A DNA stretch of 52,201 nt, from contig CAMRVD010000003.1 in the NCBI GenBank assembly GCA_947054085.1, positions 1 through 52,201 of the forward strand. The letters are read 5' to 3'. The DNA is from an uncultured Clostridia bacterium. Its GTDB lineage: Bacteria; Bacillota; Clostridia; Christensenellales; UBA1242. Below, piece after piece: positions 247 through 39,082 of this stretch. The number at the start of each line of letters is the position of its first letter. Positions within the stretch are counted from its first letter, which is position 1. The notes below the pieces were generated by a model that was not told the DNA's origin, ran no database searches, and saw only the letters and a program-made list of their open reading frames with translations. Both the position numbers and the translations under genes were made by a program.

Positions 247-318
247 TTATTTAATTGGAATAGAATCTTAATAATTTAAATAACAAAGCCAGCAAAAAAT
301 AGATGAAGAACAAGGCAC

Positions 319-374
319 AAAAAAATTCCCAAAGGGAGTTTACTTAATCGTAAATGACCGCATGGGAATTTTTT
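319..374. repeat. Hairpin element E1 (short form): AAATTCCCA stem around core GGAGTTTACTTAATCGTAAATGACC
   Basis: aaaaaaattccca...tgggaatttttt inverted repeat; core shared with E3, E4 and E5. Confidence 0.75.
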
Positions 375-423
375 ATTTCACAATTATTCGCTATTTTAAA
401 TTATAATAACGTGCAACCAAAAC

Positions 424-543: not shown

Positions 544-548
544 AATAA

Positions 549-674
549 AAAAGGCTAAAAATTGATGCAAGGCAAGTGCTCTATGTCTGCCCACGCGCGG
601 ATTTTACTATAACGTAAATGACAAGTGTGGGCAGGCATAAGAAAGCGTAGTATTGTATTAATTTTTAGCCTTTT
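549..674. repeat. Hairpin element E3 (long nested form); one outer arm lies in the acpP 3' coding end
   Basis: Perfect 15-bp arms aaaaggctaaaaatt (549-563) / aatttttagcctttt (660-674); mid-stem ctgcccac/gtgggcag; core ggattttactataacgtaaatgac. Confidence 0.85.
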
Positions 675-888
675 GAATATAAGTAACAATTTGAGCCACA
701 GTCTTAATCTCGGCTATCTTTTCGTCTGGGATAGAAATATTAAATTCGTCTTCTAAACTCATTAAAATTTCTACTAAATCTAACGAATCTGCCCCTAAAT
801 CGGTTGCTACATTGGTTTCTGGTGTAATCCTATTTTCGTCTACACCCAGTTGTTCTGCTAAAATCTTTTTAACTTTTTGTTCTACCAT
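658..888 (-). CDS. acpP: Acyl carrier protein
   Basis: 76 aa with the LGADSLDLVEILMSLEDEF phosphopantetheine site. Confidence 0.95.
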   Translation of the reverse strand: MVEQKVKKILAEQLGVDENRITPETNVATDLGADSLDLVEILMSLEDEFNISIPDEKIAEIKTVAQIVTYIQKAKN

Positions 889-21514: not shown

Positions 21515-24500
21515 TTATACATTTGTCCTAGATACAGAAATATAAATTGTTACATTACTATTTGATGTTATATTCATAGACGCTTCAAAGTAGCCATTAG
21601 TACTTTCACTAGGATGAACCGAACCTAAACTACCGCTTCCACTACTTGTACCAGCTTTTAATGTATCATAAGTTTCTCCGCTACTACTTTCATCATAATA
21701 TAGTTTTTCTGCTCCAATTTTAAAGCTTTTAGGGAGCTCAACAGAATATACACCAGATGAATTTACTAACTCGTATAGATAATATTTTACACCGCCAATA
21801 GAGTAATATATTTTATAACTATTTGCAATATATTTATCTACCCTAAATGTAACAGTTATAGAATCTTTTACAAATACAGCAGTTATGGTCATATTGCTAG
21901 TTACTTTATTTGTACTCATACTCCAATTACTAAATTTATAACCCGTTTTAGCAGTCGTTGTTATAGTGTTTCCATTTACAAATAGAACACTTCCTGCGGT
22001 AGTTATAGATGTATTATATGGAACGCCTGTTACAGTAGTTTTACTAACAGTACCCATAACAGAGCTATTTGAAGTAATTGTTACTATATAAGTCAATTGT
22101 GTAAATACTGCAGTAATCGTCGCCTCTCCTGTAAGAGTAAATTGACCAGTGGTATAATTAGTTCCGTTTATATTCCAATGTGAGAATTTATAGCCAGTGT
22201 TTGCAACAGCGTAGAAGAGTTCGTCATCACCAGTTCTTAATTGAGAGCCACTAATTTGGAATACATCTCCATGTGCACCATTATACTCTAAGCTAGAACC
22301 TGTTTGACCATTAGTATCCCAATTTAAATACCCATAGTCTGCATGATTAACTTCGAACCATAGATCGTAGAATATCGGTGAAAAATTAGCTGTGATTGTA
22401 CGATCTTCTGCAATAACGCCACTAGTGTTACCACTCCAACTAGTAAATCTGTAACCTGTTTTAGGTGTTGCAGTAACCAAGTTATTATAATGTAAGCTAA
22501 TAATATTGTCTCTTATTACAATACTATCATAATCATCGTGACGTACTCTAAACGTTGCGGTAGATAAATTAGTGCCTCCTAAATACGGTCCGCCTATAGT
22601 ACCATAATTACTATTATTAACCTTAAATGTAATGGTATATAAACTAACAACTTCTGGTTCTATACTAATATAACCCGTAATTGTTCCACTACTTGGTACT
22701 CCACTAGAAATTACATATTTTGTATTGTCGTACTGAGCTCCGTAAATTTCCCAAGTAGAGCCATAAAGTATTTGATTATCATAAAAATCATATACATAGC
22801 CTTTATCTACGCCATTAATTTTTATACCAAATTTTACTCCAGAAACACCGTCACCTTTTTCTTCGCCATTTAGTATAGGGTTTAAGTCTACCGCATGCCT
22901 AGTATGCTCCATAACAAGGTAGTTGGTTTTACGAGTAATACTGGTTGTTCTACCTGCTGGTAAAGACAATACCGACAAGTACGTTTTAGCACTGCTAAGA
23001 TATGTGCTATTTGTGCTATAAGCAATATAACTACTTGCTTTATCACCATCGTCAAAGCTTGTTAATGTACTCTTTTGTACTGTATATGTTTTAGTAAGAG
23101 TAGTATTTACATTTATATAAATATTTTTGTTTAATCCAATTGCACCAGAGTTAGAACCGTTATTAGATGTAAAGTTAGAGTTTAAGTTGAATGTACCCTT
23201 TTCTATATAGATATTGGTTACATTTGCACGGTTTGTACTAATTGTTGCGTTACCGCTTATTGTAAAAGTACCATCAACAATTCTGATATTTTGAGTTCCC
23301 CAACTAGATTGGTTGTTAGTTATATACCCACCAGAAACATCTAATGCTCTATTAGAATATATTCCTCCGATAATACATTTTGTTGCGTCACCATTAGCGG
23401 TTATATTACCACCAGAAATTCTAGTAGTTCCCGCGTTATAAATTGCACCACCAGTTTCGGCATTGTTACCAGAGATTGTTCCGCCTGTTATAGTTAGCGA
23501 ACTTGTGTTATGTATTGCACCACCTCTTGTAGCAATATTGCCACTTATAGTACCTCCACTAATAGTTACACCTGTTGCTACAGATATACCAGCACCTTCT
23601 GAAGCCCTATTATTTTTTATTTCGGTAGTACCACTAATTGTTACAGTTCCATCAACTCTAATTCCACCACCAGCAGATGTACCAGTATTATTATTTATTT
23701 TACCCCCACTAATTTGGTTGCTGCCGGAGGTTTTAATCATCAACCCACCACCAACAGTAGCAGAAGAGTTGTAAGATATTTCACCACTAGTCATGTTTAT
23801 AACGCCATAGCTATACACACCGCCACCACTCCAGTCTGTAGTAGCATTATACTTAATGAGAACGCCTTTTATATTTAATTTATCGGTTGAGTCATTAGAA
23901 TATATTCCACCACCACCCGGTGCTAAGTTGTAACTAATCGATCCCCCATTAAGGTTAAGGGTTGCACCACCAGCACAACCTATACCACCGCCGGCATTAC
24001 TGCACCAGTTGCTTCGGGTACTTTCGGTTGCCGCACTTGTTACGTTTGCATTACCTATTGTTCCACCTGTAATAGTTAGGGTTGCACCTTTTATAAATAA
24101 ACCGCCACCCATATTGGTATACTCTAGCCCCAAGCCCGAACCATTTTGTGCTTTGTTGTTATAAATTTGACCGTCACTTATGTTAACAGCACTCTGTGCA
24201 TATATACCGCCACCACAACCAGAGCTGTTATTTTTAATTTCGCCACCGCTCATACTAAACGAACCAGTGCCAACGTATACTCCGCCACCTAGTTTAGTTG
24301 CAGAGTTATTTTCTATTATGCCAGATTTAAATATAACACTAGTTCCAGAGTTATATTGAATACCACCGCCATGTTCCGCTGTTTGGTTATTCTTAATTGT
24401 TACACCGTCAAAAGTGGTATCGCCATCGATACAAACACCACCTGCTCCACTATTAGCAGAGTTATAGGAAATTGTACCTCCACTAAAAACATTGCCAGCG

Positions 24501-26755
24501 GTTTTTACAATTATGCCACCACCCCAGCCGTTTGCACTGTTATGGTCTAGAGTTCCACCAGACATAGTTACTACACCAAAGGCGTAGATAGCTCCACCGC
24601 TTGCTGCACTTTTGTTGTATTTTGCCACAAATGGGTCGGTTATGTTTATTTTATCTATTGCACTTTCCGAAAATACGGCTCCTCCTGCTTGCATACTTAC
24701 ATTGTGTGCAATTGCTCCACTATGCAGGTTTAGTGTAGAGCCTTCCTTTATGTATATAGCCCCACCGTGCTCGCCCGATTTATTAGAAAAATCTGTACTT
24801 GTAGCACCTGTTGTTCTAGAGCTATCGCCAATTTCGCCACCAGTCATATTAATGGTAGCGTTGATTGAGTATATCGCTCCGCCATTGCCTTTTGCACTAT
24901 TTTCATGAATACTGCCTTGTTTAAGGTTTAACGTTCCGCCGTTTAAAAATATTGCCCCCGCTTCATCTGTCGAATTATTGCATGCAATTTCTGTACCGGC
25001 TATGTTTATCGTCGCTTCCCAGCCATGAATACCAGCACCCGCACTACCACTATTCCAGTCTATTAAACCACCATTTAAATTTACGGTTCCATTTTTTCCA
25101 ACAAATATTCCGCCACCATTACCTTCTGTTTCTCCATTGCTATTTTTTACTGCATTGTGATAAACATGGCCGCCATTCATGTTTAACACTCCATCTACGG
25201 TCATTCCGCCGCCATGTTTTTCGGTAACAGCATTGTTTTTTATCCAACCACTAGTTAATGTAAGTGTAGAGCCAGACTCGACAAAGATTCCTCCAGCAGT
25301 CTTGGCAATATTGTGCGAAATCATGGTTCCTTTTATCTCTACATTGCTAGCACTGGCAATACTAAGTCCGCCGCCTAAATTTGCTTTGTTACTGTAATTT
25401 TCTAGGTCGGCAATGGCATCACCACTATTATTTACTCCAATTACTCCACCACTAAAGGTGCCAGTACAAGATTCTAATCTTACACCGCCACCATTTTGCC
25501 CAGCAGTGTTATTACTAATTTCGCCACTAGTCATATTAATGGTAGAGTTGCTTGAGTATATCGCTCCGCCCATACAAGTAGCATAGTTGTTTTGCATTTT
25601 TATATTGCCACTAATATCTAGTTTTGATTCTCCAGCAATATACACAGCTGCACCATAAGCAGCGTAGCAATTTTTTATTGTTCCGCCAATAATAGTTGCT
25701 GTTCCGCCGCCAATATAAATTGCTCCGCCACCAGTGTCCTCAGCTTCCGAAAGCGACTGACAATTAATAAATTCACAACCAGTAACAGTTAAATTTCCTG
25801 TATTAGTTTTCACAGCACCGCCACTACCACTAGTAGTAAAGTTGGTAAATTTTAGATTTTCTAGTATCAGAGTACCGCCAGTTTGGTCTATTGCTCTTCC
25901 TGCCCTATATGTTTCGCCATTCAATTTAGGAGTATATTCCTTTATGGATTTTCCTCCGCTTAGGGTAAATGTTCCTTTATTTAATTTTAGTATTTGCCCA
26001 TTTTTTTCTGATGTGTCAGTTAGTGTTGCAGTTGATGCTAGGCTTGCAGACATTAGCAATGTGCTATTGTTGCTTGTTTGTTGTTCGCTATCCCCTATAC
26101 TAAACACGCAGTTCTCTACATTTAATGTTTGGCTGGTTCCTGTTACCAACTCGCCCAAGGTGTAGTTTGCATCCCCGCTGGTTTCTATCTCTACTTTTTT
26201 GTCACCATCGTCCACTACAGCCAACACTTTACCGTTATTGTATGTGGCAGATATGGTAGTTGCTATATTAGCCTTAGTAAAAGTGGCAGTTTCTGCATAA
26301 TCACATACAGACAATACACTGCGTGCAAAATTAGACGAACTTTGTTCGTCTTCTTTTATAAAGGTTATATTTAGTTCCCCTTTGGCATTAAATCCAAAAG
26401 TATTTGCTAATCCTGTTTTTGTAAAAGATAAGTTTAAATTAATATCCGAATCATGGGTATTTGGCAAATCATTTAATATAACATATGATGTTTTGTTGTT
26501 TACCATACTTGCGGCGTTATTGCAGGCATCGTCTGCATAAGTGCCGCACTCCTCTATCTCGGCGTAAACTTTGTTTCCATTTACAATATAATTGCCAGTG
26601 TATTCTTCTGGCATTACGTAGTTTAAACTATGGATAGTATTTTTACTGTTTGTTTTATTACAGTTTAAAGTTCCTATCCCTCCACCTAAGCACAATACAA
26701 GGGCAAATAGTATGCAAATTATACTAAGTTTACTTTTTTGTATTATTTTTAACAC
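21515..26755 (-). CDS. Large secreted beta-helix (Pmp-like GGAIY repeats) protein with three InlB-type repeats
   Basis: Signal peptide; many GGAIY/GGGI...NNSA units; then GYRFTSWSGNTSGVIAEDRTITANF-type repeats; no LPXTG seen. Confidence 0.85.
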   Translation of the reverse strand: MLKIIQKSKLSIICILFALVLCLGGGIGTLNCNKTNSKNTIHSLNYVMPEEYTGNYIVNGNKVYAEIEECGTYADDACNNAASMVNNKTSYVILNDLPNTHDSDINLNLSFTKTGLANTFGFNAKGELNITFIKEDEQSSSNFARSVLSVCDYAETATFTKANIATTISATYNNGKVLAVVDDGDKKVEIETSGDANYTLGELVTGTSQTLNVENCVFSIGDSEQQTSNNSTLLMSASLASTATLTDTSEKNGQILKLNKGTFTLSGGKSIKEYTPKLNGETYRAGRAIDQTGGTLILENLKFTNFTTSGSGGAVKTNTGNLTVTGCEFINCQSLSEAEDTGGGAIYIGGGTATIIGGTIKNCYAAYGAAVYIAGESKLDISGNIKMQNNYATCMGGAIYSSNSTINMTSGEISNNTAGQNGGGVRLESCTGTFSGGVIGVNNSGDAIADLENYSNKANLGGGLSIASASNVEIKGTMISHNIAKTAGGIFVESGSTLTLTSGWIKNNAVTEKHGGGMTVDGVLNMNGGHVYHNAVKNSNGETEGNGGGIFVGKNGTVNLNGGLIDWNSGSAGAGIHGWEATINIAGTEIACNNSTDEAGAIFLNGGTLNLKQGSIHENSAKGNGGAIYSINATINMTGGEIGDSSRTTGATSTDFSNKSGEHGGAIYIKEGSTLNLHSGAIAHNVSMQAGGAVFSESAIDKINITDPFVAKYNKSAASGGAIYAFGVVTMSGGTLDHNSANGWGGGIIVKTAGNVFSGGTISYNSANSGAGGVCIDGDTTFDGVTIKNNQTAEHGGGIQYNSGTSVIFKSGIIENNSATKLGGGVYVGTGSFSMSGGEIKNNSSGCGGGIYAQSAVNISDGQIYNNKAQNGSGLGLEYTNMGGGLFIKGATLTITGGTIGNANVTSAATESTRSNWCSNAGGGIGCAGGATLNLNGGSISYNLAPGGGGIYSNDSTDKLNIKGVLIKYNATTDWSGGGVYSYGVINMTSGEISYNSSATVGGGLMIKTSGSNQISGGKINNNTGTSAGGGIRVDGTVTISGTTEIKNNRASEGAGISVATGVTISGGTISGNIATRGGAIHNTSSLTITGGTISGNNAETGGAIYNAGTTRISGGNITANGDATKCIIGGIYSNRALDVSGGYITNNQSSWGTQNIRIVDGTFTISGNATISTNRANVTNIYIEKGTFNLNSNFTSNNGSNSGAIGLNKNIYINVNTTLTKTYTVQKSTLTSFDDGDKASSYIAYSTNSTYLSSAKTYLSVLSLPAGRTTSITRKTNYLVMEHTRHAVDLNPILNGEEKGDGVSGVKFGIKINGVDKGYVYDFYDNQILYGSTWEIYGAQYDNTKYVISSGVPSSGTITGYISIEPEVVSLYTITFKVNNSNYGTIGGPYLGGTNLSTATFRVRHDDYDSIVIRDNIISLHYNNLVTATPKTGYRFTSWSGNTSGVIAEDRTITANFSPIFYDLWFEVNHADYGYLNWDTNGQTGSSLEYNGAHGDVFQISGSQLRTGDDELFYAVANTGYKFSHWNINGTNYTTGQFTLTGEATITAVFTQLTYIVTITSNSSVMGTVSKTTVTGVPYNTSITTAGSVLFVNGNTITTTAKTGYKFSNWSMSTNKVTSNMTITAVFVKDSITVTFRVDKYIANSYKIYYSIGGVKYYLYELVNSSGVYSVELPKSFKIGAEKLYYDESSSGETYDTLKAGTSSGSGSLGSVHPSESTNGYFEASMNITSNSNVTIYISVSRTNV

Positions 26756-26987
26756 TTACTTTGCCCTCCTTTGTTGTTAGTTTGGTTTTGTTTGCTGGTT
26801 TTTAATCTAAATATATTTATATATTACTAAAAAAGTTTCAAAATAGCAAATAAAAAACGACCTTTTAATCGTTTAAATAGAATTAATTGTATAAAATAAT
26901 TTACCCATTTAAAAAAAATTAATAGCATAAGGAGCAGTCTAAAGAAAGATACAAGAGCTTAAAAATTAGATAAAATACAAGCAAAAT

Positions 26988-27040
26988 AAAAAAACAGGCT
27001 AGGATTTTACTTTAACGTAAATGACGTAGTCTGTTTTTTT
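26988..27040. repeat. Hairpin element E4 (short form) 3' of rplA
   Basis: aaaaaacaggcta...tagtctgttttttt around ggattttactttaacgtaaatgac. Confidence 0.8.
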
Positions 27041-27063
27041 AATTTTCTGCAATAGTTCGCAAA

Positions 27064-27753
27064 TTATTGGGCTCTATACATTACTTTAATGCCAGGTCCC
27101 ATAGTCCCTGCTACAGATATACTCTTAAAATAAGTACCTTTAGCAGCTTGTGGCTTAGCTTTTGCAAGAGCATCTATAACTGCATCGTAGTTTTCTTTAA
27201 GTTTGGCTGCACCAAAACTCTTTTTACCAATAACTACGTGGATAATACCAAATTTGTCTAGACGATACTCTACTTTACCAGCTTTGATATCTTTTAAAGC
27301 TTTTGCAACGTCTGCAGTAACTGTGCCGCTCTTTGGGTTAGGCATAAGACCGCGAGGTCCAAGAATACGTGCAATACGACCAACTAGTCCCATCATGTCT
27401 GGGGTGGTGATGCAGGCATCAAAACCTAACCAGTTTTCTTTAACGATTTTGTCGATCATATCTTCTGCACCAACAAAATCTGCGCCATTAGCTTTTGCAA
27501 TATCGGCTTTGTCGCCTTTTGCAATTACTAAAACTTTAACCGATTTACCAGTACCATTAGGAAGAACAACGCTTCCACGAACTTGTTGGTCTGCGTTTTT
27601 AGGGTCTACACCTAGTTTAACATGAAGTTCGATAGTTTCATCAAACTTAGCGGTGCAAGTTTCTACAGCAAGAGAAAGTGCATCTTCTACTTCGTATAAT
27701 TTTGTGCGTTCTACCTTAGCGGCAGCGTTTACATAATTTTTACCGTGTTTCAT
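27064..27753 (-). CDS. rplA: Ribosomal protein L1
   Basis: [30 protein letters not shown]. Confidence 0.98.
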
Positions 27754-36057: not shown

Positions 36058-36216
36058 AAAAACAGGCTAGGAGCTTACTACTCGCGGAGTCCCCTCAAAG
36101 TACTACTTTGTGGTTAAAAGGAAAACAAACACATAAAACTAAAAGCCACTTTAAAATTTTTTAAAGTGGCTAAAACTGTTGTGTTTGTTTGACGATAGTG
36201 ACGTCGTCTGCTTTTT
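36058..36216. repeat. Composite hairpin element E6: E4-like ends interrupted by an internal inverted repeat
   Basis: aaaaacaggctaggagcttac...gtgacgtcgtctgcttttt; inner IR aaaacaaacaca...tgtgtttgttt with aaaagccactttaaaa hairpin (36122-36190). Confidence 0.6.
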
Positions 36217-36247: not shown

Positions 36248-36372
36248 AAAAGGCAGAATTTGGCGTAATACGAGTGCTCGGCAAGTTTTAACGACGCGAT
36301 TTTACTTAAACGTAAATGAGCGAAGCTAAAGCTTGCCAGTAAAGCGAAGTATTACGCTAAATTCTGCCTTTT
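36248..36372. repeat. Hairpin element E5 (long nested form), abutting the secA stop codon
   Basis: aaaaggcagaatttggcgtaatac / gtattacgctaaattctgcctttt, ggcaag/cttgcc mid-stem, core cgattttacttaaacgtaaatgag. Confidence 0.85.
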
Positions 36373-39082
36373 ATTTCCCGCAGCAGTTTTTATACTTCTT
36401 CCCCGACCCACAAGGACACAAGTCATTACGCCCAACTGTTGTGGATTTTACTACAGTTTTAGGTTTTTGTTCCTCTTTTTTACCGGAAGTTGATGTTCTT
36501 AAATTTGCATTTGGAGTGGTTGATTTTTTTAAGCCAGAGTTTATTATATTTTTACGCTCGATAGTGATAATAGGCAAAGATAATAATATTTTTGCAACCT
36601 CTTCGCGTACCGAAGATATCATTTGGTCGAACATGTCGCCACCCTCGGCTTGGTAAACGATAACTGGATTTTTGTTACCATACCCACGAAGTCCAATGCC
36701 CATTTTTAAGTTGTCCATATCGTCGATATGTTCTATCCAACGCTTATCTAGATTATTTAAAAATACGTCGCGTTCGAACTGAGCAATATTAAGCCCGTTT
36801 TCGGTATTTTTAGCATATCTACTTTCGTATTTGCTTATAGCACGCGATTTAACAAGTTCCACCAGTTCTCGCTCGGAATATCTATTTAAAGTATCTGCAG
36901 TAATTAAGTTTGTTCCCGGTTCTAGTAAAAATTGCTCTAATTTTTTATTAAACTCGTCTATTGGTGCAGTTTCCGGGTCGTCGTAATCCAGCTCTGCAAC
37001 AGTTTCTTCGGCAAAGTCAGCAATCATTTCTAGTATTTTATCATGAATATCTTCGCCATTTAGTATTTTTTCACGCTCGGTGTAAACTTCGGCTCTTTGT
37101 TGATTTAAAACATTATCAAATTCAATTACATTTTTACGGGCCGAATAGTTAAAGCCCTCTACCTTTTTTTGTGCGGTCTCTACGTTATGCGAAAACAGTC
37201 GCCAGTTAATAGACATATCTTCGTCTACTTTAAAGATTTGTGCCATGCGTTTTAGCCTATCCGAGCCAAAAACACGCGATAAGTCGTCATCCGCGGATAT
37301 ATAGAATATAGAGCTACCGTTATCACCTTGCCTACCAGACCTACCCCTAAGCTGATTGTCTATACGCCTGCTTTCGTGACGTTCTGTACCAATAATCTTA
37401 AGTCCACCAAGAGCTATAACTTCTTGTTTTTCCTCGTCGGTTATAGCGGTAAATTTTTCTAGAGCTTTGGTGTATTCTTTTCGTGCTTCCTCCTCTATCT
37501 CGTTAGAAGTTGGAAAAAACGAACTTGCTATTTCTATAACTTCGTCCTCGTAGCCTTTCTTTTTAAGCTCTTGCTTTGCCATAAACTCGGGGTTTCCTCC
37601 AAGAAGAATATCTGTACCACGACCCGCCATGTTGGTAGCAATGGTTACCGAGCCAAGCTTACCGGCTTGAGCTATAATTTCCGCTTCCTTTAAGTGGTTT
37701 TTGGCGTTAAGCACATTATGAGGTATCCTTAGTTTTTTAAGTTCGTGACTAAGTTCCTCACTTTTTTCTACTGTAATTGTACCAACTAGTACAGGCTGAC
37801 GGCGATTATAGCAATCCTCTATATCTTTGCAAACAGCTTTAATTTTTGCCTCGTGACTAAAGTAAAAACTGTCGTTATAATCTATACGTTTTACTGGTTT
37901 ATTGCTAGGAATACTTACAACATCCAGCCCATAAATTTCTTTAAATTCGCTTTCTTCGGTTTTGGCAGTACCTGTCATTCCAGCAAGCTTAGAATACAAT
38001 TTAAAAAAGTTTTGAAGGGTTATTGTAGCCTGAGTTTTATTTTCTTCGTTAATTTTAACGCCCTCTTTTGCTTCGATAGCTTGATGCAAGCCGTCAGAAT
38101 ACCTTCTGCCCACCATAACGCGGCCAGTAAACTCGTCTACAATTAAAACTTCGCCGTCACGGACAATATAATCGTTGTCCTTTTTCATCATAAACCTAGC
38201 ACGAATGGCGTTATTTATGTTATGGTTTATAGCAAGGTTTTCTATATCTGATAAGTTGTCTATTTTATAAAAATTTTCGGCCTTAGTAATGCCAGTTTCC
38301 GATAGGTTTATAGACTTTTTTTGTTCGTCTATTTCTACATCGGTTTTAAGCAGTTTACTTGCAAAATTGCACGCTACTGTGTATTGGTCGCTACTCTCCC
38401 CTGTTGGACCGCTAATAATAAGGGGAGTACGAGCTTCGTCTATTAAAACGCTGTCTACCTCGTCTATAATGCAATAGGTAAGTCCACGCATAAACTGGTA
38501 CTTTTTAGATGGTGCCATGTTGTCACGCAAATAGTCAAAACCAAACTCGCTACTTGTACCATAAACAATATCGCAATTATATGCAGCGGCTTTTTCTTGT
38601 GGGTTTTGATTGCTATAAACAACACCTACAGTTAAGCCTAAGTACCTATGAATTTTACCCATCCACTCGGTATCACGTTTAGCTAGATATTCGTTTACAG
38701 TAACAATGTGTACACTTTTTCCGCTTAATGCATTTAAGTAAGCAGGAAGAGTACTTACCAATGTTTTACCTTCGCCCGTTTTCATTTCGGCAATACGACC
38801 TTGATGAAGAACTATGCCTCCTAAAAGTTGAACATGAAAATGCTTCTTTTTAAGCACACGGTATCCAGCTTCACGAACAACCGCAAAAGCATCAGGAAGT
38901 ATATCATCCAATGTTTCGCCGTTGCTTAGCCTTTGTTTTAAAACGTTGGTTTGATTTTTAAGTTCTTCTTCCGATAAAGCCGAATATTTTTCGTCCAATG
39001 CCTCTATTTTTGCAGCTATTTTCTCTAGTTTTTTTATTGCTTTATTATTGTCGTAATTTGCAAGTAATTTAAATAATCCCAT
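36371..39082 (-). CDS. secA: Preprotein translocase ATPase SecA
   Basis: MKTGEGKTLVSTLPAYLNAL; C-terminal CPCGSGKKYKNCCGK. Confidence 0.98.
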   Translation of the reverse strand: MGLFKLLANYDNNKAIKKLEKIAAKIEALDEKYSALSEEELKNQTNVLKQRLSNGETLDDILPDAFAVVREAGYRVLKKKHFHVQLLGGIVLHQGRIAEMKTGEGKTLVSTLPAYLNALSGKSVHIVTVNEYLAKRDTEWMGKIHRYLGLTVGVVYSNQNPQEKAAAYNCDIVYGTSSEFGFDYLRDNMAPSKKYQFMRGLTYCIIDEVDSVLIDEARTPLIISGPTGESSDQYTVACNFASKLLKTDVEIDEQKKSINLSETGITKAENFYKIDNLSDIENLAINHNINNAIRARFMMKKDNDYIVRDGEVLIVDEFTGRVMVGRRYSDGLHQAIEAKEGVKINEENKTQATITLQNFFKLYSKLAGMTGTAKTEESEFKEIYGLDVVSIPSNKPVKRIDYNDSFYFSHEAKIKAVCKDIEDCYNRRQPVLVGTITVEKSEELSHELKKLRIPHNVLNAKNHLKEAEIIAQAGKLGSVTIATNMAGRGTDILLGGNPEFMAKQELKKKGYEDEVIEIASSFFPTSNEIEEEARKEYTKALEKFTAITDEEKQEVIALGGLKIIGTERHESRRIDNQLRGRSGRQGDNGSSIFYISADDDLSRVFGSDRLKRMAQIFKVDEDMSINWRLFSHNVETAQKKVEGFNYSARKNVIEFDNVLNQQRAEVYTEREKILNGEDIHDKILEMIADFAEETVAELDYDDPETAPIDEFNKKLEQFLLEPGTNLITADTLNRYSERELVELVKSRAISKYESRYAKNTENGLNIAQFERDVFLNNLDKRWIEHIDDMDNLKMGIGLRGYGNKNPVIVYQAEGGDMFDQMISSVREEVAKILLSLPIITIERKNIINSGLKKSTTPNANLRTSTSGKKEEQKPKTVVKSTTVGRNDLCPCGSGKKYKNCCGK

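Follow-up and report, generated by a model that had tools for sequence, protein, structure and literature searches.

An ERIC-related palindromic repeat family in Clostridia and the hairpin at the acpP stop codon

Directly behind acpP, in the 52,201-nt stretch of DNA analysed here (the window), lies a long hairpin, E3, one arm of which is at the same time the end of the gene. This locus raises the question of whether the gene end was copied into the hairpin or the hairpin supplied the gene end. An earlier note on this DNA had proposed that the arm is templated on acpP, and the inverted match behind this proposal is exact: positions 549-563 (AAAAGGCTAAAAATT) are the reverse complement of 660-674 (AATTTTTAGCCTTTT), and the 15-nt arm covers the last acpP codons (K-A-K-N), together with two bases of the Q codon before them and one base of the stop. 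Its statement that half of the hairpin is coding sequence was also borne out, as shown by the gene-side arm in the list below. A search of the window with R1, a covariance model made from 37 Clostridia copies, returned exactly five copies, and the features are as follows.

549..674, + strand: E3 with arms, ERIC-like hairpin directly behind acpP; R1 match 558-667, 26.7 bits, E 2e-5
549..570, + strand: left, distal arm of E3, in which 549-563 inverts the acpP end exactly
653..674, + strand: gene-side (right) arm of E3; holds the acpP stop and the codons N, K, A and K
600..622, + strand: conserved core hairpin of E3, GATTTTACTATAACGTAAATGAC, 0 mismatches to the genome-wide core
547..552, - strand: U6 run after AGCC (acpP sense), terminator-like end of E3, from the sequence
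658..888, - strand: acpP, open reading frame of 76 aa ending YIQKAKN*; stop at 658-660, N, K, A and K at 661-672
296..400, + strand: E1, third tandem copy; R1 49.8 bits
424..543, + strand: E2 with its arms, in tandem and oriented alike; R1 431-537, arms 424-443/524-543
26961..27069, + strand: E4, right arm overlapping the rplA end (rplA ORF 27064-27753, minus strand); R1 24.7 bits
36245..36375, + strand: E5 with 27-nt arms, covering the secA stop (36371-36373) plus 2 nt of the codon before it; from the arm pair and R1

The full arm pair of E3 (549-570/653-674; 22 nt, 91% complementary) encloses the conserved core, and the acpP coding end reads AAAAGGCTAAA. The folding energy of the E3 + strand is -62.5 kcal/mol, whereas shuffles give -28.2 +/- 3.6 (z -9.5). 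The same situation had been claimed for E5 at secA, and rightly: the arms 36245-36271/36349-36375 (27 nt, 96% complementary) reach 2 nt past the secA stop. Overlap with a coding end is not confined to acpP, and is likewise seen at rplA (E4), aspS, gapA and others in the same genome.

Three further observations concern the surroundings of such copies. The stretch 36060-36215 adjoining E5, AAACAGGCTAGGAGCTTACT...GACGATAGTGACGTCGTCTGCTTTTT, resembles another copy split by a different hairpin and gave no R1 match; a fragment with the look of a decayed core, TTAGATTTTACTATGGCGTAAATTT, lies just outside the aspS copy (L005, 1390-1440); and at 21515-26755 the window holds a 1746-aa open frame with two 66-nt direct repeats (24818 and 25505) that are 88% alike.

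The repeat family and its relation to ERIC

Using R1, 34 copies of the ~105-nt hairpin with its conserved core were found in the genome of the window (own genome, 1.19 Mb). The core GATTTTACTnnAACGTAAATGAC gave 21 genome matches at ≤3 mismatches compared with 0 for a reversed-pattern control, and it is present in many Clostridia genomes too. R1 contains 27 pairs, 19 of which have double-sided changes; it also has tandem GA/GA mismatches and one G.U pair that hardly varies. In an Rfam search, no family was found at gathering score; a match to mir-214 (E 0.02) lay far under its gathering score and was taken as chance. In the bacterial family, 31 of 96 genomes are carriers with very uneven copy number, and sister species differ by as much as 0 to 25 copies; G092 has 25 and G021 16, compared with 0-12 in sisters. 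Outside Clostridia, R1 places were found in a Serratia genome (22), Arcobacter (10), Campylobacterales (2) and a Bacteroidaceae MAG (23), where it should be considered that the genomes are mostly MAGs, so that misassembly or contamination may affect individual loci, most of all in the Bacteroidaceae MAG. The loci sampled from that MAG (L375, L381, L387, L392 and L397) are mostly stop-anchored, and may come from contaminating Clostridia contigs.

The family is ERIC-related, because R1, built from Clostridia copies, also recovers the ERIC elements of E. coli and Serratia, and it is present in at least three bacterial phyla. The path to ERIC ran through a Serratia locus matched by the core pattern, which proved similar to the aceF-lpdA element of E. 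coli. R1 aligned with E. coli ERIC copies over their whole length, at 24-24.5 bits, and with other enterobacterial copies at 18-23 bits, while one of six loci was unmatched; in the control, 22 chance-core loci reached ≤15 bits and only at about positions 40-63 of R1. Common descent with ERIC is the simplest reading of these alignments, the alternative being convergence on a short hairpin motif.

ERIC repeats came to attention in about 1990 and, to our knowledge, have neither an identified mover nor a clear function. The present copies share with ERIC (IRU, RU-1) the long imperfect hairpin, the core GGAGYTTAC...GTAARTGAC, a similar length and multicopy occurrence, and the ERIC trait of a core palindrome in a long imperfect hairpin of ~127 bp is found here. 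They differ in three respects. First, ERIC has conserved TA-flanked terminal inverted repeats, whereas the arms here vary from copy to copy; the Serratia copies have uniform TATACCC...GGGTATA-type ends with 0 of 5 stop-anchored, in contrast to the site-specific arms of Clostridia-type copies. Second, ERIC is placed between genes without stop anchoring, whereas here the orientation is fixed and a stop lies within about 20 nt. Third, the described range of ERIC is Enterobacteriaceae and Vibrionaceae (PMC10969869), whereas copies were found here in Clostridia, Arcobacter, Campylobacterales and a Bacteroidaceae MAG. ERIC is reported to be fused to the 3' ends of genes that thereby lose their normal stop (PMC2759123) and to influence how stable mRNA is (PMC2229807), and a literature search, largely outside subscription journals, found no paper on ERIC relatives in Clostridia or Campylobacterota. 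ERIC is associated with a TA target-site duplication. When 109 copies were examined here, there was no general signal of target-site duplication; direct repeats of ≥10 nt surround 5 of them, some being tandem copies, and a 12-nt duplication occurs at ssb.

Orientation and anchoring at stop codons

The copies sit at stop codons in one orientation. In the pooled Clostridia sets, a gene 3' end lies ≤20 nt away on the right in 67 copies and on the left in 3 (own genome, 23 vs 0; genus g20, 24 vs 0; other Clostridia, 20 vs 3), with distance taken from the R1 right edge and genes being long open frames called mechanically; copies from the same genus are non-independent, and several of the tests in this study were designed after the sequences had been seen. 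Many of the unanchored remainder stand second or third in head-to-tail arrays. Anchoring in the same direction was found in 6 of 6 Arcobacter, 2 of 2 Campylobacterales and 4 of 5 Bacteroidaceae copies, compared with 0 of 5 in Serratia, so that 8 of 8 Campylobacterota copies are stop-anchored in fixed orientation. These copies (L374, L377, L380, L383, L386, L391, L396 and L401) lie ≤17 nt from stop codons, and the Arcobacter arms are site-specific. We know of no earlier report of stop-anchored copies in Campylobacterota. At rpsG, where the gene end is constant (TGG TAA), a copy or remnant starts at the stop in 14 of 15 species (the G076 copy is degenerate), and its arms are very different between species, yet paired. 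In two sister species whose gene ends are 92-97% identical, different subfamilies occupy the same stop codon (G021 L208, L212, L216 and L217; G101 L310, L330, L335 and L342), as if the elements had been exchanged.

Of the two strands, the element strand, which is antisense to the anchoring gene, is the better-folding one (for E3, -62.5 vs -43.2 kcal/mol), and its core stems hold more G.U than A.C (22 vs 7), which hints that the folded molecule is the element strand, as DNA or antisense RNA. Integron attC sites are also oriented hairpins that closely follow a stop codon, and there too the strand that folds is antisense to the gene. This is a works-like resemblance only, and here the centre is conserved, the ends are variable and the anchoring genes are housekeeping genes. 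Rickettsia palindromic elements (RPE) are likewise palindromic repeats and bring extra codons into genes (PMC2229807), as copies of the present family do, but they lie in frame within genes rather than at stop codons; we set the two apart by description, not by sequence. Finally, intrinsic (Rho-independent) terminators share with E3 the hairpin right behind the gene and the U6 run, but the 105-nt conserved interior distinguishes the family from them, and a GC clamp with a U-tract is absent from most copies. E3 itself has the form of an intrinsic terminator in the acpP sense. Terminator function as a rule for the family was rejected, a GC-rich stem with a U-tract occurring at background in the own genome.

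Direction of sequence flow at gene ends

The arms of each copy belong together. Outward complementarity was higher for own flanks than for mixed flanks in all three sets (means 11.9 vs 5.9, 13.6 vs 7.0 and 10.0 vs 4.3). Fully unique arms, in the sense of the earlier note, were nevertheless rejected for the own genome, because many of its copies share GGC-AAAAATT, and the outer arm has an own-genome consensus, in the gene sense about TTAAACGGCAAAAATTA. Most of the 15 nt at acpP conforms to the arm consensus derived from the other own-genome copies. With a weight matrix from the other 32 copies, whose columns were picked on an alignment that included E3, the acpP arm scored 10.5 bits, a value reached by 24 of 104,372 windows and by 60 of 200,000 composition shuffles.

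The acpP case is general, because the distal arm of a copy agrees better with the coding tail of its own gene than with swapped tails. When the own stop was kept for each copy, the match to own and swapped tails was 6.72 vs 2.56 in the own genome, 4.44 vs 2.71 in the sister genus and 5.38 vs 3.34 in Campylobacterota, with an excess in four of five sets overall. A contiguous-match count gave arms running into coding sequence in 15 of 47 copies vs 3.5 +/- 1.6, a count that misaligns E3 and others with the stop inside the arm.

At other genes, comparison of species with and without the element shows that sequence flowed towards the gene. The fusA tail is KKS* in six element-free species, and KKN*, RKN* or KRN* with an element-supplied TGA in five. 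For secA (CCGKQQ*/CCGKEQN* vs CCGK*) and gapA (YNVDHK* vs ASKDKK*), the tail was replaced and the stop brought by the element; another gene changed from EKLQK*/EKAQK* to EKQKNNSQ*; an ABC-F gene, whose tail and stop likewise come from the element, has EYMNSMS* vs EYMNF* and EYMLN*, two different truncations in sisters that are 97% identical over the compared stretch; and in the own genome several last codons became NTT before TAA. In contrast, the element did not supply everything everywhere, because the coding ends at aspS, ICILL*, PLF* and IN* are ancestral. The LTP* end of aspS is conserved in both relatives and matched by the distal arm with two mismatches; the ICILL* end TATTATAA, matched by the distal arms of three species, and the PLF* end TATTTTAG, matched by the distal arm there, are each found also in an element-free species (for PLF*, G109); and the IN* end, conserved without the element, reappears in the distal arm wholly or partly. 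Such matches are what templating or selection for pairing would give.

The idea that the arm was templated on acpP therefore survives only in part: distal arms do match their own tails, but acpP as the template is put in doubt by the arm consensus and by the tails overwritten elsewhere. For acpP, the arm consensus favours flow from element to gene, while the tail of a more distant element-free relative, FIDKAK*, keeps the reverse direction open.

Explanations for the acpP hairpin

The explanation that we find somewhat more probable than not takes E3 as a copy of a dispersed ERIC-related palindromic repeat, lying in one orientation with its right end at or inside the gene 3' end. Its family, orientation, stop anchoring and arm pairing are established, as is the overwriting of tails at other genes. 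Most likely, a large part of AAAAGGCTAAAAATTAA at the acpP end stems from the element and now encodes K-A-K-N-stop, because the outer arm has its own consensus in the own genome; the acpP tail would thus have been overwritten as at other genes. The outermost pairs vary by copy and fit the local sequence, and arm complementarity may be kept by selection for the hairpin, by template switching between the arms, or by both. Where a U run follows the gene, as at acpP, the composite hairpin can also act as an intrinsic terminator, whereas most copies are not terminator-like. Against this explanation, K-A-K is a plausible ancestral acpP tail, given FIDKAK* in the relative and an acpP length identical here and in G002; the weight-matrix columns were picked with E3 in the alignment; and the coding ends at aspS, ICILL*, PLF* and IN* are ancestral. 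The same genus offers only two other genomes, both with ~75% acpP identity and no element behind acpP, and the genomes compared yielded neither a recent jump nor an acpP allele from before the insertion.

Hairpin arms are known to arise, and to be preserved, through template switching (PMC8794818), and quasipalindrome-type repair after arrival of the element could have copied the acpP end in inverted form into the distal arm, the arms growing outward by repetition. This would explain the own-tail excess in four of five sets and the ICILL* and PLF* arms, which match ends present without the element; it also agrees with arm mismatches that show no clear preference (G.U 25 vs A.C 20 in two sets) next to core stems that do. 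We nevertheless consider it unlikely for acpP, where the arm fits the element's own consensus, and the AAATAACAAAAAAAGAGC arm common to loci L222, L223 and L226 at different genes indicates that arms can travel with the element. As a discriminator of selection and templating, the G.U/A.C asymmetry was dropped, the mismatches being too few.

It is improbable that an intrinsic terminator already lay over the acpP end, with the stem AAAAGGCT/AGCCTTTT, and received the element in its loop. An A-tract, AAAAGGCT...AGCCTTTTTT and U6 do surround E3, and the ordinary terminator in an element-free relative that the earlier note had named as the counter-case exists in kind: in G002, which belongs to the same genus, AAAAAATAGGC-GTTT-GCCTATTTTTTTT contains the acpP end and stop. 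Its arm letters, like those of G001, are however unlike those here. The ssb gene also speaks for this model: a site lacking the element forms a terminator whose loop holds the stop, and the occupied site has the 12-nt duplication; GATGTTGTCATA stands on both sides of the element in L207 (G021) and once in empty orthologues (L304, G101). Against it, no matching terminator was found at other empty sites, T5 after a GC clamp is about as common in the own genome as in the background (9% vs 8%), and in most of 15 species a copy separates rpsG from fusA, a place where no strong terminator is to be expected. Least probable of all is a selected structured RNA at gene ends with no mobile element, its stems drifting by compensatory change, which fits the strong core-stem covariation and the species-variable but still paired rpsG arms, but not the copy number jumps of 0 to 25 between sister species, the different subfamilies at one stop codon in close sisters, the overwritten tails, or a better-folding strand antisense to the gene.

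Returning to the preferred reading of E3 as a copy of the ERIC-related repeat, we tentatively raise a wider and rather doubtful one, namely a cross-phylum ERIC-related class that is stop-targeted and oriented and whose ends gain the inverted local gene end, with enterobacterial ERIC as a derived, unanchored branch. If so, each copy would build its own perfect arms from the host gene. Oriented, stop-locked relatives in Clostridia, Campylobacterota and perhaps Bacteroidota offer, whichever reading holds, a new handle on the mover and function of ERIC. In addition, the genus of G021, with 17 genomes, provides natural filled and empty sites, in which insertion, tail overwriting and arm correction may be read stepwise. 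These repeats are also a route to new C-terminal residues in essential proteins, including EF-G, SecA, GAPDH and perhaps acyl carrier protein.
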